Below are positions 8,482-45,543 of a stretch of DNA of 45,767 nt, piece after piece. The notes beneath the pieces are model-generated. The model made no database searches. It was given only the letters and a program-made list of their open reading frames with translations, and was not told the DNA's origin. The stretch comes from Phycisphaerae bacterium (GTDB taxonomy: Bacteria; Planctomycetota; Phycisphaerae; UBA1845). The stretch lies in contig JAJDDT010000039.1 of NCBI GenBank assembly GCA_029260165.1, positions 1 through 45,767 of the forward strand, in the 5' to 3' direction. Position 1 is the stretch's first letter, and each line of letters begins with the position of its first letter. The translations under genes and the position numbers were made by a program.

Positions 8482-8671
8482 CCGTTACCCGCAACCTGAT
8501 GCGCTATGACAGATGGTTTGATAAATCATCAGCACACGGGTGGCCCGCCTCTTTAGAGGTGGGGGACTTGATTTGAGTTCCGAAATCGACTCCCCCACGG
8601 CTAAAGCCATGGGCCACCCAACGATGGGCCAACCAACCTGATTCGTCGGCGCGTGACCGTTACCCGCAACC
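8466..8671. repeat. 31-bp direct repeats flanking an inserted segment
   Basis: The 31-bp segments at 8466-8496 and 8641-8671 differ at one base. Each holds the end of the E1-like gene (GGCGCGTGA) and the last codons of the opposing small gene (its TAA read from the minus strand). The 144 bp between them contain the 82-bp palindromic element. The simplest reading is that the two genes once converged with stops a few bases apart, and an insertion or slippage duplicated the junction. Confidence 0.75.
8538..8619. repeat. Palindromic element A, copy 1 (82 bp)
   Basis: The outer arms GGGTGGCCC and GGGCCACCC pair, as do GTGGGGGACT and its near-complement in the right arm. Each arm carries its own small palindrome, CCTCTTTAGAGG on the left and GGCTAAAGCC on the right, so the whole can fold as a three-armed figure. 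An inverted copy of the same length lies at 33810-33891. It carries no gene and resembles a miniature non-autonomous element. Confidence 0.8.
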
Positions 8672-12206: not shown

Positions 12207-14519
12207 TTAAGGCGATTCGGGGTCCGGTTCGATGAGTTCAAATCCGAATACGCGTAATTCCGCGAAACCACCGCAACTGGGGTTTTGATGTCCGACGAGC
12301 ACAAGTTGCACGGTTTGCCCTGCCAGACCTGCGGGAAACGCCTCCGAAATATCGACTCGGGAACCCGACAGCCCGATGACGCCTGAACTGAATATCTCCG
12401 CACCACCTGCGTCGAGAACGCGTACGGTGACGGTCGCAAACCCGAATTTTCCACCCCCCTCGAATTGCTCCGGATCGGTCTCGACCCGGGCGAGGAAGAT
12501 GTCCGTGTTCTCCGAAAACGTCCATGTGTAGACTTCTGCGTTCCCTCCGGCGGAATTGCCATCAGAGAACCAGCTTGAGGATGAATCACCATCCACAGAT
12601 CGACCGACGCCGAAGTTGTTCGAGTCGTTGTCGAAAACCGATGACGCGCTGACGGATCCCTGATTGGTAATGTTCACGACGGCGAAACATTCGGGGTCCG
12701 GTGGGAAGCTGTTCTGGTCGCACATCGATGGCGTGTCGTCAGTCGGGTCATCGTCATCGGCGGGGTCGTCATCCTCTTCGCCATCCTCGGTTACCTCGAT
12801 CGTCAACACACGTTCGCGAACCTCGCCCGTTGCGTCGACCACGCGTGCGGTGACGGCGTAGGTTCCAGCCTCGGCGAACCGATGCGGAAGGGTGTCCCCG
12901 ACCGTTGACCGTGTGCTGTTTGAATCATGTTCCAGCGTGCTGATGCTCCCGTCGTTCCAGTTGAATTCGATCTGATAGGCGCGGCGTTGACCGTTGACGA
13001 CCAACACCCCGCCAACGATCGAATAGGTGAAGTTGATGCTCTGGTCCGGAGCGGCTGTCAGCGTTTCAGCCGACACCGTCAGATTCATCGTTGCCCCACC
13101 GGTGACTGTGACCGGTTTGGTAAACGTTGTGGAGTCCCCCTGGGTGTCTGTGACGGTCGCGGTCAGCAGGTAGGCTCCGGGTTCGGAAAGAAAAACGCTG
13201 TCCATGACTTCGGGATCGGCCGTCTCTGCTCTGCCCCGCTGACTGGTCGGCAGGAGTTCCCACGCCAATGTGTAGGCTGGTACCCCACCAGAGAACCGGT
13301 AGGTGTAGCTTGTGGATGTGAAGGCGCTCGTTGCGACCGGCGTGGACAAGGGTCCGTCAATCACCAGCCCCAGCATCTCCTCGGTGACGGTTACCGGGAT
13401 GGTCAGGCTTCCCGTTCGCCCTCCCGCGTCAGTGGCGTCGACGACGACGTTGAATGTTACCGCGCGGTCGTAGGTGTGCGGTGATGTCCGGATGCCGATC
13501 GGCACGGTGGAGTCCTCTGTCTCCGTGCTGCGACCGCTGTTGTCACCATAATTCCAGCCGTAGGTGACCGGGCCGTTGTTTGAGTTCGTGACCGCGACAA
13601 ACAACCCCGGCACCTCCTCGCCGACGTTTCGCTCCAGAATGCCATCGACGAGCATCAAAGCCAGATCACCGGACGTGTCGGCGGCCACCGTGATGCTCGT
13701 GGCTGCGAATCCGCGCTTACCGGAAAACGGGTCCGTGTAGTTCACGGTGAGGTCGAGTCGTCCTTCGCTGGTCGCGGTGACGGCAACAAGTCTGGTTCCG
13801 TCGAGCCGTACAAGCGACGGTCCGCCCGATGATTCGTTTGGCTGGGCCAATCCCGCGTCGCCGTAAACGGTCCAGCCCGTTTCAAGGGATGCTTCGCCTG
13901 CGTCCTCGAAACCCGTCAGCAGATACAATCCCGTCTGCCCGGGGGCGAGGAACTCCGGACCGACAATACGGCCTTGGCGCGGTGGCGAAATCGTGGGGAC
14001 ATCGGTCGTTGCGTCGGGAATTCCGACGGCGGCCTTGATTCCGTCGATTTCGGCGTCCTGCAGCGGAATTCGTTTTGCGGCGGCACCGGGCAGGCGCGAA
14101 AAATGGGCCGTTGTTGCGACAATTTCGTTGCCGTCGATTTCGGTGGACAGCAGCGTTGTCGCTCCGTCGTCGGCGATTTGATAGATGCCCGCCCGTTCGG
14201 GGTCCGTACCGGCTGGTATCGGCAACCTGATCTGAAAGGGGCGGGACGGGTTTTCATCGACCTCGATGCGAATGACTGTTCCCGCCAACGACACGCCCAG
14301 GGGCAGGAGAGGCTCGGAGGCTGTCGTGACGTTGACGGTCGCGTTTTCTGACAAGCTGCCGGCTGGAAACTCGAGGCTCCCGCCCTGTGCGATCGTCACC
14401 GACGTCGATGGTCCACCGCCGCCCGTTGGATTTGCATTCGGGTCGCATCCAACCACACCGACCATTGCGACGCACACAGCCACCGTGGAAACCAAACCGG
14501 GTCGAGTCTTCAACATCAT
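12207..14519 (-). CDS. Surface lipoprotein with PKD-type domains
   Basis: This 770-residue protein has a lipoprotein signal ending VGVVGC (Cys about 25). A domain rich in SVTIAQGGSLEFPAG-type strands follows (resembling ZU5-like autoproteolytic-fold modules), then at least three Ig/PKD-like modules (for example GPVTYGWNYGDNSGRS and YQIEFNWNDGS). An acidic Asp/Glu/Pro linker runs around 600. A C-terminal discoidin-like module (about 620-765) begins FAVVNITNQGSVSASSVFD, contains SSSWFSDG, and may bind carbohydrate. It is probably anchored at the cell surface and adhesive. Start ATG 14519, or the adjacent ATG 14516, with GGAGAT upstream. No function is proven. Confidence 0.8.
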   Translation of the reverse strand: MMLKTRPGLVSTVAVCVAMVGVVGCDPNANPTGGGGPSTSVTIAQGGSLEFPAGSLSENATVNVTTASEPLLPLGVSLAGTVIRIEVDENPSRPFQIRLPIPAGTDPERAGIYQIADDGATTLLSTEIDGNEIVATTAHFSRLPGAAAKRIPLQDAEIDGIKAAVGIPDATTDVPTISPPRQGRIVGPEFLAPGQTGLYLLTGFEDAGEASLETGWTVYGDAGLAQPNESSGGPSLVRLDGTRLVAVTATSEGRLDLTVNYTDPFSGKRGFAATSITVAADTSGDLALMLVDGILERNVGEEVPGLFVAVTNSNNGPVTYGWNYGDNSGRSTETEDSTVPIGIRTSPHTYDRAVTFNVVVDATDAGGRTGSLTIPVTVTEEMLGLVIDGPLSTPVATSAFTSTSYTYRFSGGVPAYTLAWELLPTSQRGRAETADPEVMDSVFLSEPGAYLLTATVTDTQGDSTTFTKPVTVTGGATMNLTVSAETLTAAPDQSINFTYSIVGGVLVVNGQRRAYQIEFNWNDGSISTLEHDSNSTRSTVGDTLPHRFAEAGTYAVTARVVDATGEVRERVLTIEVTEDGEEDDDPADDDDPTDDTPSMCDQNSFPPDPECFAVVNITNQGSVSASSVFDNDSNNFGVGRSVDGDSSSSWFSDGNSAGGNAEVYTWTFSENTDIFLARVETDPEQFEGGGKFGFATVTVRVLDAGGAEIFSSGVIGLSGSRVDISEAFPAGLAGQTVQLVLVGHQNPSCGGFAELRVFGFELIEPDPESP

Positions 14520-33763: not shown

Positions 33764-33791
33764 TGTAGCGTCACCCCTTGTGGGTGACGGG
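33764..33791. repeat. Repeat element B, single left arm
   Basis: This 28-bp segment (TGTAGCGTCACCCC, then TTGTGGGTGACGGG) is almost identical to the left arm of the element at 39568-39650. No right arm is present. Instead element A begins 18 bp later, so this copy is truncated or interrupted. Confidence 0.75.
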
Positions 33792-33809
33792 AAAACCAGA
33801 CCATGCGTC

Positions 33810-33891
33810 GGGTGGCCCATGGCTTTAGCCGTGGGGGAGTCGAATCCAGACCCGCCATCGAGTCCCCCACCTCTAAAGAGGTGGGCCACCC
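33810..33891. repeat. Palindromic element A, copy 2 (82 bp)
   Basis: This is the reverse complement of the element at 8538-8619, of exactly the same length. The arms (GGGTGGCCC / GGGCCACCC) and both internal palindromes (GGCTTTAGCC and CTCTAAAGAG) are conserved, and only the central 20 bp or so differ. It lies between the convergent aminotransferase and ACT genes. The 33724-33970 gap holds no gene. Confidence 0.8.
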
Positions 33892-33970
33892 GTAATGATC
33901 GGGACACCATGGGCTGATGATGCACAAACCATCTGTCATGGAGCACTGGCAAACGATCAAACAGCGCGTC

Positions 33971-38998: not shown

Positions 38999-40315
38999 AT
39001 GAGCTTCCTGATCGATTGGGCAACGCAGACGTGGGATTTGGTGGCCTGTTCGGCTGTGTGGTTGCTGTTCGGGTTTGCGGCGGCTGGTTTCATTTCGGTG
39101 TTGGTGCCATCGCGGTGGATTCTGAATCACCTTGGCGGATCGGGGATGATGAGCGTGTTGAAGGCGTCGGTGTTTGGGATTCCGCTGACGCTTTGCTCGT
39201 GCAGCGTGATCCCGGTGGCATCTTCGTTGCGACGTCGCGGGGCGAGCAAGGGTGCGACGGCGGGATTTTTGATCAGCACGCCGGAGATTGGGGTTGATTC
39301 GTTTGCGTTGTCGTATGCGCTGTTGGGGCCTGTGCTTGCGATTGCCCGACCGTTATCGGCGTTGGTGACAACGTTGATGGCCGGTGGGTTGATCGAGCGG
39401 TTTGACAGGGATGGTTCCGCGAAGGGAACGCTGACGCCCGATACGGATTCGTCGTGCTGTTGTGCGAATTCGGATGGTGGTGTCGAACCTGTCGAGGCGT
39501 CGGTGGATTGTTGCAACGAGACGGTTGAGGCGTCGGGAGACTGTTGCGGCGAGACGAAACCAACCGTTGTAGCGTCACCCCTTGTGGGTGACGGGGATGC
39601 GAAACGACGTCCGCTTGCAATCGCGCCGCCCACGAGGGGCGACGCTACAGAAGTCTCCACAAAGAACGCAACAAAACAGGCACAATACCGCAAGACAATC
39701 GCGAGCACGTCGGGGCCATCGATTGGATCGGCGATTCGTTATGGATTCGTGGACCTGTTGTCGGACCTGGCCCATTGGTTGGCGATTGGGTTTTTGCTGG
39801 CTGGTTTGGTGCAGGTATTGATGCCGGACGGTTTCCTGGATCGCTACATCGGTGACGGAATGCTCGCGAAGGTGGCCATGCTGGTGGCAGGGTTGCCGCT
39901 GTACATTTGCGCGACGTCGTCGACGCCTCTTGCGGCTGCCCTGATTGCTCAGGGTTTAAGCCCAGGGGCTGCTCTGGTGTTCCTGCTGGTCGGTCCCGCG
40001 ACGAACGCAGCCACGATGACGGTGGTTTTCCGGGACCTTGGAATCAGGAGTTTGGTTATTTACCTTGCCAGCATAGCCGTGGTTTCGATGGTGGCTGGTG
40101 TTGGACTGGATGCGTTGGTGGGTGACGCGGGGATACCTGAGTCGGTTTTGGGGAAATCGGGGCACGGTCCGTCGACATGGAGCAGCGTGGCGGGGGTGAC
40201 ATTCTGCGTGTTGCTGTTGAACGGGCTTCGGATTCGATGGTCGAAACGCCGAAAGTCGTCGGAAAAAGCGAGTGGAGCGTCGTTGCCGGAGGGTCAGTGT
40301 CCGAATTGTCATTAG
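38999..40315 (+). CDS. Metal permease (DUF318/ArsP-like), element B in frame
   Basis: This 438-residue membrane protein has two halves of about four helices each. The first carries FGIPLTLCSCSVIPVASSLRRRGASKGATAGFLISTPEIG and the second the matching ICATSSTPLAAALIAQGLSPGAALVFLLVGPATN, the pattern of permeases that move arsenic, copper or zinc. The loop between them (about 143-235) is Cys-rich (SSCCCANS, VDCCNE, GDCCGE) and may bind metal. Residues 190-218 are encoded by palindromic element B, read through without a stop. The gene ends in an Arg/Lys-rich tail and GQCPNCH. Start ATG 38999. Confidence 0.87.
   Translation: MSFLIDWATQTWDLVACSAVWLLFGFAAAGFISVLVPSRWILNHLGGSGMMSVLKASVFGIPLTLCSCSVIPVASSLRRRGASKGATAGFLISTPEIGVDSFALSYALLGPVLAIARPLSALVTTLMAGGLIERFDRDGSAKGTLTPDTDSSCCCANSDGGVEPVEASVDCCNETVEASGDCCGETKPTVVASPLVGDGDAKRRPLAIAPPTRGDATEVSTKNATKQAQYRKTIASTSGPSIGSAIRYGFVDLLSDLAHWLAIGFLLAGLVQVLMPDGFLDRYIGDGMLAKVAMLVAGLPLYICATSSTPLAAALIAQGLSPGAALVFLLVGPATNAATMTVVFRDLGIRSLVIYLASIAVVSMVAGVGLDALVGDAGIPESVLGKSGHGPSTWSSVAGVTFCVLLLNGLRIRWSKRRKSSEKASGASLPEGQCPNCH
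39568..39650. repeat. Palindromic element B inside the permease gene
   Basis: The left arm (39568-39591) and right arm (39627-39650) are inverted repeats with four mismatches over 24 bp. The left arm is nearly identical to 33764-33791. The element is translated in frame as about 28 residues containing ASPLVGDGD and PPTRGDATE, a typical outcome for repeats that can insert into a flexible loop. Confidence 0.8.
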
Positions 40316-44538: not shown

Positions 44539-45543
44539 ATGAAATCTCGATCGAAATTGGCAGGCGTACTGCTCGCCACATTGATTTGCGCCGGATGCGC
44601 CACAACCCCTACCCGGGAACCGGAGCAAAAAGCCCAGGCCAAGGCCAAACCGGCTGCCACAAGACCAGTCGCGCCCAAAATCACCGAGCAAGCCCCGAAA
44701 TTCAAGTTAGCCACCCTCGATAAGAGGCGTGAAATCGACTCCGACAGACTCGTGGGCAAGGAACCCGTCCTCTTGTTCTTCGGTAGCTATACATGACCAC
44801 CCTTCCTGCGCCAGGTTGGCGCTATGGAGGAACTCTACCAGAACTACCGCGACGTAGCCGGAATCTACATTGTCTACATCAGCGAAGCCCACGCAGCCGA
44901 CGACCGTTTTCCCGTTCCCTACGCCACCAATCTGAACATCAAGGAGCACACCACCTACGGTGAGCGATGCGACGTTGCCAAACGATTGGTCGCAGACAAG
45001 AAGCTGACCATTCCCTGCCTCATTGACGAAATCGACAACGGCGTCGCAGACGCCTACCAGGCTCTACCCGATCGCGTCTACCTGATCCGCAAGGACGGCA
45101 CCCTCGCGATCGCAGGCAACCGGGGCCCGTGGGGTTTCAAACCCGCGCTGGACGCAGCCGAAGACTGGCTTGCGAAATACAAAGCCACCGGCGTCGAACC
45201 TGCTCCCGTCCCGCTCGTCGACGCAAGGGCAAGAACACGCGAGATCAATGCCAAAATGATGTCCGCCTATCGCGGCGGCGACTATGACAATGCCGTCAAA
45301 TACGCCACGGAATTGCACAAACTCGCTCCACGAGATTCCGGTACTATGTACAATGTCGCCTGCTTCCAGTGTCTCGCGGGCAACCACAAGGAATCCTACG
45401 GTTGGTTGCAAAAAGCCATCGACGCAGGTTACGACGACGTTGACCACCTCGTCGCCGACGACGATTTCAAAGCCATCCGCAAGGAAAAGCGATTCCAGGA
45501 AATAGTCAGCAAACTACGCAATAACGGCGAAATGACACAATAA
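44539..45543 (+). CDS. Deiodinase-like lipoprotein selenoprotein (Sec86 = TGA)
   Basis: This 334-residue protein is read through an in-frame TGA at 44794-44796. It has a lipoprotein signal (lipobox ICAGC, C20), an Ala/Lys/Pro linker, and a thioredoxin-fold domain (about 48-215) whose active site reads FFGSYT-U-PPFLRQVGAMEELY. That is the iodothyronine-deiodinase family motif, where U is selenocysteine. IYIVYISEAHA and IPCLIDEIDNGVADAY follow, then a TPR-like C-terminus (AYRGGDYDNAVKYATELHKL). Start ATG 44539 with AAAAGGAG upstream. It is a probable envelope-anchored redox protein; the substrate is unknown, and bacterial members need not act on thyroid hormones. Without Sec insertion only an 85-residue fragment would form. 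Confidence 0.88.
44802..44830 (+). promoter_or_regulatory. Bacterial SECIS-like hairpin
   Basis: Immediately downstream of the TGA, GCGCCA (44808-44813) pairs with TGGCGC (44817-44822) around a GGU loop. CTTCC (44802-44806) pairs with GGAGG (44826-44830) across a small bulge. The loop starts 17 nt after the TGA, within the range used by SelB-type selenocysteine insertion, and has the expected G and U. Confidence 0.75.

Follow-up and report, generated by a model that had tools for sequence, protein, structure and literature searches.

A probable deiodinase-like selenoprotein with a TPR-type tail in a Phycisphaerae bacterium

The gene and its surroundings

The window, by which we mean the whole stretch of DNA analyzed (45,767 bases), is an entire contig (C52) of a Phycisphaerae bacterium assembly comprising 4.43 Mb in 119 contigs, with 100% completeness and 1.71% contamination. 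A frame on its forward strand, 44539-45543, is interrupted solely by a TGA at 44794-44796 (residue 86), and when this codon is read as a residue the frame encodes a 334-residue protein that carries the motif FGSYT-U-PPF and ends at a TAA stop. Translation table 11 splits the frame into ORFs of 85 residues (44539-44796) and 239 residues (44824-45543), position 44824 being merely the first ATG 3' of the TGA. A preliminary description of this DNA had taken the two ORFs to be one frame cut by a TGA and had expected standard gene calling to report them separately; with the TGA read as a residue, both points and the coordinates given for them are correct. The features of the gene are as follows:

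44539..45543, + strand: whole gene, a deiodinase-like selenoprotein with a TPR tail (frame reading; 11 relatives with domain and tail)
44539..44598, + strand: probable lipoprotein signal peptide, a hydrophobic run to ...LICAG-Cys20 (sequence; six of the 12 genes, this one among them, have a similar Cys)
44686..45180, + strand: deiodinase (thioredoxin-fold) domain PF00837 (profile; sequence comparison and a low-confidence model both point to mouse Dio2 and Dio3 as the nearest structures)
44794..44796, + strand: TGA codon read as selenocysteine, Sec86 (family alignment, selA co-occurrence, coding signal)
44802..44830, + strand: bacterial-type SECIS stem-loop (folding; upper-stem covariation in relatives)
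44802-44806/44826-44830, + strand: lower stem of the SECIS, with the upper stem at 44808-44813/44817-44822 and the loop GGU at 44814-44816
45016..45018, + strand: codon of the distal Cys160 (Sec+74), candidate resolving thiol (Cys at Sec+74 in 12 of 12 tailed genes)
45256..45507, + strand: TPR-type tail including the TPR end-of-group domain NF047558 (residues 270-323; PF22316 at residues 240-325)

Residues 50-214 matched the T4_deiodinase profile PF00837 (3e-26; 92.6 bits, cut-off 27), and this was the single PF00837 match in the host genome. A Pfam match to AhpC-TSA was weaker (34.2 bits, cut-off 26), and the threshold of NCBIfam NF038285, "deiodinase family protein," was missed (137.3 bits, cut-off 250). 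Further 3', NF047558 scored 51.9 bits (cut-off 32); the T4_deiodinase, NF047558, and PF22316 matches agree with the remainder of a thioredoxin fold and the TPR-like tail that had been proposed downstream of the TGA. The best solved relatives by sequence were mouse Dio2 (7.5e-18) and Dio3 (1.2e-16), with residue 86 aligned to the catalytic residue of both. A low-confidence structure model, built from an alignment of two sequences (mean pLDDT 68.9; below 50 in the active-site loop), had Dio3 and Dio2 as its top hits in a fold search of the PDB, with thioredoxin-like and ResA structures next.

The lipoprotein signal put forward in the preliminary description should be stated more cautiously. Cys20 follows a hydrophobic run and is a plausible lipidation site, but the residue at -3 in LICAG-C20 is Cys, where Leu, Val, or Ile is usual, and a Cys fitting the simple rule occurs in 6 of the 12 tailed genes, including the window's. 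We infer that the protein is exported, and it is probably lipid-anchored in the cell envelope.

Relatives of the protein came almost entirely from class-wide genome searches, the scan of genome contigs having given one and a phage search with the window protein zero matches. The closest is 59% identical over residues 4-327 and belongs to a genome from the host's own family. A deiodinase domain together with the tail was found in 12 of 397 class genomes (matches reaching at least residue 326). One such gene (G388) has an added N-terminal part that is GDSL-like, with a Pfam score of 18.4 bits, under the cut-off of 23.6. Another of the twelve genomes, G296 (L130:9844-12531), encodes an 896-residue frame that joins a Sec deiodinase, the TPR tail, a part that looks GDSL-like (judged by eye), and DUF3179 (104.8 bits), an already listed Sec family; its two in-frame TGAs, at residues 123 and 802 and the second at U-P-L, look like two Sec sites. 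EF-hands were present in 1 of 53 proteins scanned (L038).

Neighborhood clustering covered 179 ORFs from 12 loci, of which 10 contain tailed genes and two contain genes lacking the tail (the tailed genes of G346 and G388, on short contigs, were omitted), and among these loci no conserved operon partner and no functional context was found. Shared neighbors fell mostly within one genus, with three loci sharing a neighbor of 815-827 amino acids, and what remained were lone matches linking two or three loci.

Elsewhere in the window, an identical 28-base repeat occurs at 33764-33791 and 39568-39595, the second copy lying inside an ArsP_1-type permease gene (38999-40315), and an 88-base inverted repeat with 88% complementarity has its two arms at 8536-8623 and 33806-33893, 25 kb apart. 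Positions 12207-14519 on the reverse strand encode a putative surface protein of 770 residues that contains PKD domains.

Evidence for selenocysteine decoding of the in-frame TGA

The host genome has the whole Sec machinery. Its tRNA-Sec scored 68.1 bits against an Rfam cut-off of 47 (exceeded as well in 5 of the 14 controls, which are other genomes), and ARAGORN called a tRNA-SeC with anticodon tca. The selB gene adjoins selA on contig C5, and both frames are free of TGA; among the 14 controls, selB was over the cut-off in two and selA in one. A selD gene lies at G000:C10:9728-10648 (L019) and has one in-frame TGA of its own, in NYASCAGUAGKLP, a site at which SelD often has Sec. Thus tRNA-Sec, SelA, SelB, and SelD, the genomic set that accompanies a bacterial-type SECIS, all occur in this genome, and the lack of selB or selC that the preliminary description had named as grounds for abandoning its reading is not seen.

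Within the class, PF00837 matched 74 of the 397 sampled genomes (70 over cut-off) in 82 rows, 77 of which were fetched, with the five weakest omitted (in G316, G074, G340, G305, and G278). A TGA occurs in 54 of these 77 sequences, always in one aligned column, a count that includes two doubtful members (L096, L097) and one sequence (L094) whose matched stretch contains another stop. The other 23 have Cys (8), Glu (8), Ser (5), or Ala (2) at the site. A stop or an unrelated residue in homologues had been foreseen as a point against selenocysteine; homologues have TGA or, in three planctomycetes that are not of the class, Cys, but the Glu, Ser, or Ala in 15 of the 23 TGA-free class sequences keeps that objection partly alive. 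In the trees, these 15 sit apart from the TGA sequences. At a threshold of E <= 1e-40, 146 of the 397 class genomes gave a selA match, and selA was present in 46 of the 47 genomes with a TGA copy versus 3 of the 23 with only TGA-free copies, the other 20 being without it (Fisher p 2e-13, uncorrected for kinship). The sole TGA genome without selA (G382) is 83% complete, and with L096 and L097 dropped the count becomes 45 of 46 genomes (p 3e-13). In a phylum-wide sample of 392 genomes, 118 matched PF00837 at E <= 0.001 (115 over cut-off), and the deiodinase family is common in Planctomycetota. Among 30 phylum loci retrieved, 27 have a TGA in T-U-[P/G]-P-[F/Y] and three, from planctomycetes outside the class, have Cys in FTCGPF, so that Sec/Cys pairs exist in the family.

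A covarying stem-loop follows the TGA in relatives. Folding of the 45 bases after the TGA, compared with synonymous-codon shuffles, gave a mean z of -1.18 (49 of 54 negative; Wilcoxon p 5.5e-10), against means of -0.19 to 0.00 (p at least 0.259) in four control windows further 3'. Over all 54 sequences, a stem of seven pairs with a 3-base loop had 80.7% of its cells paired, a proportion that no shuffle among 500 reached (shuffled value 63.8%), and sliding the partner by 1-3 bases gave 34%-47%. Cells changed on both sides stood out (55 versus 19.4 in shuffles), and pairs with a change on both sides, of which there were seven over the same 54 sequences, were not exceptional (76 of 500 shuffles as high). 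All seven pairs form in 31 of the 54 sequences and at least six in 38. The first loop base is G in the window gene and in 45 of the 54, which gives the arrangement expected of a bacterial SECIS, a stem-loop just 3' of the UGA whose small apical loop contains a G (PMC1088965). In a subset of 40 sequences, picked after the pairings were known and leaving 13 of the 16 poorly pairing rows among the 14 excluded, 92.9% of cells were paired versus 77.1% in shuffles, and the loop G was invariant. The same stem pairs in 46% of cells in the 14 excluded, more distant sequences, where either the register of the SECIS differs or the stem lacks generality. Six of the seven pairs form in the window gene, the outermost tested pair being missing, and its stem-loop taken alone is moderate, with 8 to 17 of 200 shuffles folding equally well.

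Two readings dispense with selenocysteine. The TGA could be a real stop or a sequencing error, with the gene broken or split in two, as the two ORFs under table 11 and an ATG at 44824 able to start the second would allow. We give this very little credence, since the same TGA stands at the same codon in 12 of the 12 genes with a deiodinase domain and tail (the window's and 11 relatives) besides the 54 of 77 family members, and its recurrence in relatives excludes the sequencing error that the preliminary description had itself raised. Moreover, the sequence flanking the TGA on both sides evolves as protein-coding: differences among the 11 tailed relatives are mostly at third positions on either side, and against L023, 98 of the 129 residues in 87-215 are identical, with 21, 19, and 63 differences at codon positions 1, 2, and 3 over these 129 codons. 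A recoded genome, in which TGA would be an ordinary residue unconnected with selenium, accounts for a frame that is open when the TGA is read through, but is the least credible reading of all: the family has its TGA in one column only, aligned with the deiodinase Sec, Cys occupies that column in three relatives from elsewhere in the phylum, and a complete Sec machinery coexists with selB and selA frames that contain no TGA. Decoding as selenocysteine fits all computed results, and we hold with high confidence that the TGA encodes Sec and that the protein belongs to the iodothyronine deiodinase family. The original placement of Sec at a deiodinase active site has the support of the frame, the PF00837 match, the Dio2/Dio3 alignment, and the TGA in 54 of 77 class sequences.

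Active site and predicted chemistry

In alignment with Dio2, the window protein keeps Ser83, Thr85, Sec86, Tyr113, Glu116, His118, and His137. The proton relay residues S83, T85, Y113, E116, H118, and H137 correspond to Dio2 Ser127, Thr129, Tyr157, Glu160, His162, and His182 (Dio2 positions hand-counted from a printed segment), and roles for such Ser/Thr/Tyr/Glu/His residues in deiodinases are given in PMC11592359. Arg195 stands where Dio3 has Arg275 and Dio2 has Lys241. Across the class, Tyr113 is found in 77 of 77 sequences, Glu116 in 75, and His118 in 73; position 137 is His in just 16 of the 54 TGA sequences and Cys144 is present in 19, so that neither is general in the bacterial group. 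A distal Cys lies at Sec+74 in every tailed gene and at Sec+69 to Sec+76 in 37 of the 54 TGA sequences, the range of 69-76 residues after Sec reported for the distal Cys of DIO1-3, whose role is called "elusive" (PMC9141512); the pairing of Cys160 with the Dio2 distal Cys comes from HMMER, and a MAFFT alignment shifts Cys160. The gating Phe (Dio2 Phe224, Dio3 Phe258) is replaced by Pro177, with Pro in 49 of the 54 TGA sequences. The proximal Cys of DIO1 and DIO3 is Tyr84 here, and Cys occurs at Sec-2 in 1 of 54; in DIO2 the proximal site is Ala (PMC9141512).

Glu, Ser, or Ala occupies the Sec site in 15 of the 23 TGA-free sequences (L098-L120), yet Tyr113 is kept and Glu116 and His118 mostly so. 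Judging by these residues, the Glu/Ser/Ala sequences are possibly a non-redox branch.

For the window protein we predict, at middling confidence, a peroxiredoxin-like redox role. In the proposed mechanism, SelB and Sec-tRNA would bind the stem-loop, leading to insertion of Sec86, and the Sec86 selenolate would then attack an electrophile, which could be a peroxide or a halogen carried by a small organic molecule. Protons may be relayed via Ser83, Thr85, Tyr113, Glu116, His118, and His137, by analogy with the network proposed for animal deiodinases. Cys160 would resolve the oxidized selenium as a selenenyl-sulfide, an envelope thiol donor would recycle the enzyme, and the TPR tail probably docks it to a partner protein.

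We think that such a redox role is likelier than physiological dehalogenation, partly because the gating Phe is Pro here. Genuine reductive dehalogenation of small phenolics bearing iodine or bromine, with animal-deiodinase chemistry performed outside the cell, could draw on the T-U-P-P-F motif, the Ser/Thr/Tyr/Glu/His relay, and an Arg195 as in deiodinases (roles in PMC11592359); nonetheless, we consider it unlikely, given Pro177 in place of Phe224/258 of Dio2/Dio3, the argument made in PMC1088965 that thyroid hormones are not expected in bacteria, and the zero halogen-related genes that Pfam returned for the three nearest upstream ORFs. It is very improbable that the protein is a non-catalytic TPR lipoprotein with a retained redox fold. 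The Glu, Ser, or Ala in 15 of 23 TGA-free class sequences would suit loss of catalysis, but every one of the 12 tailed genes keeps the TGA, and the relay residues, His137 excepted, show little or no variation within the TGA group.

Relation to known deiodinases and selenoproteins

Bacterial Sec and Cys deiodinase-like proteins with a bacterial SECIS were described in 2005 (PMC1088965) and recounted in 2008 (PMC2398784), and bacterial deiodinase-like selenoproteins also appear in reviews of 2022 and 2026 (PMC9312934, PMC13188914). The word "unusual" in the preliminary description was accordingly too strong for a family common in Planctomycetota, with Sec forms in print since 2005. The window protein shares PF00837, Sec, and a SECIS right after the UGA with the Sargasso Sea and GOS proteins (PMC1088965, PMC2398784), and differs from them in coming with a whole genome, Sec machinery included, and in carrying a predicted export signal plus a TPR tail. 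Both reviews give the motif as UxxC, and the 2008 table gives none; Sec+3 in the 54 TGA sequences of the class is Phe in 53, Gly in one, and Cys in none.

Like animal Dio1-3 (4tr3, 9h48), the protein has Sec, T-U-P-P-F, the Ser/Thr/Tyr/Glu/His relay, and a distal Cys, and its loop-D is near the Dio2 length (19 residues for His118-His137, 20 for Dio2 His162-His182). Unlike them, it has no gating Phe and no proximal Cys, carries an added TPR tail, has a probable export/lipoprotein signal in place of the membrane anchor, and is specified by a gene with a bacterial SECIS inside the coding region. The combination of a Sec deiodinase domain with an accessory domain recalls an EF-hand-fused deiodinase-like selenoprotein (PMC9402790), a type of fusion that L038 also represents, although in the window protein TPR takes the place of the EF-hand. 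With peroxiredoxins/AhpC-TSA and ResA-type envelope thiol oxidoreductases it has the thioredoxin fold in common, but PF00837 scores far higher and no CxxC-type second Cys lies beside Sec. A search of titles and abstract openings for deiodinase, selenoprotein, and tetratricopeptide together did not find a TPR-tailed fusion. The fusion to a TPR end-of-group tail is the less ordinary part, the Sec deiodinase-like family itself being already known, and specialists should be no more than modestly surprised, both the family and a comparable fusion having been published.

In a quick tree built from 109 rows, mouse Dio2 and Dio3 fell inside the planctomycetal Sec group. When four odd rows were dropped (L096, L097, L103, L117), a tree with bacterial Sec and Cys sequences apart from the animal ones was 18.3 log units better (p-AU 0.772). 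We make no claim that animal deiodinases originated from within Planctomycetota on the basis of this nesting, because the tree with separate sides scores better and is not rejected.

A broader proposal, which we regard as improbable, assigns to Planctomycetota a large extracytoplasmic branch of Sec deiodinases that share T-U-P-P-F, the proton relay, and the distal Cys of the animal active site. Some of its members would be docked via TPR, GDSL-like, or DUF3179 parts, and the branch would strip iodine or bromine reductively from extracellular phenolics and would count among the nearest bacterial relatives of the animal deiodinases. The gene described here is an example of a gene caller cutting an enzyme at its active site. 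It provides a well-defined bacterial relative of the deiodinases alongside a complete Sec machinery, with which a deiodinase-like role without thyroid hormone becomes testable, and the TPR, GDSL-like, and DUF3179 fusions offer handles on the partners of these proteins.
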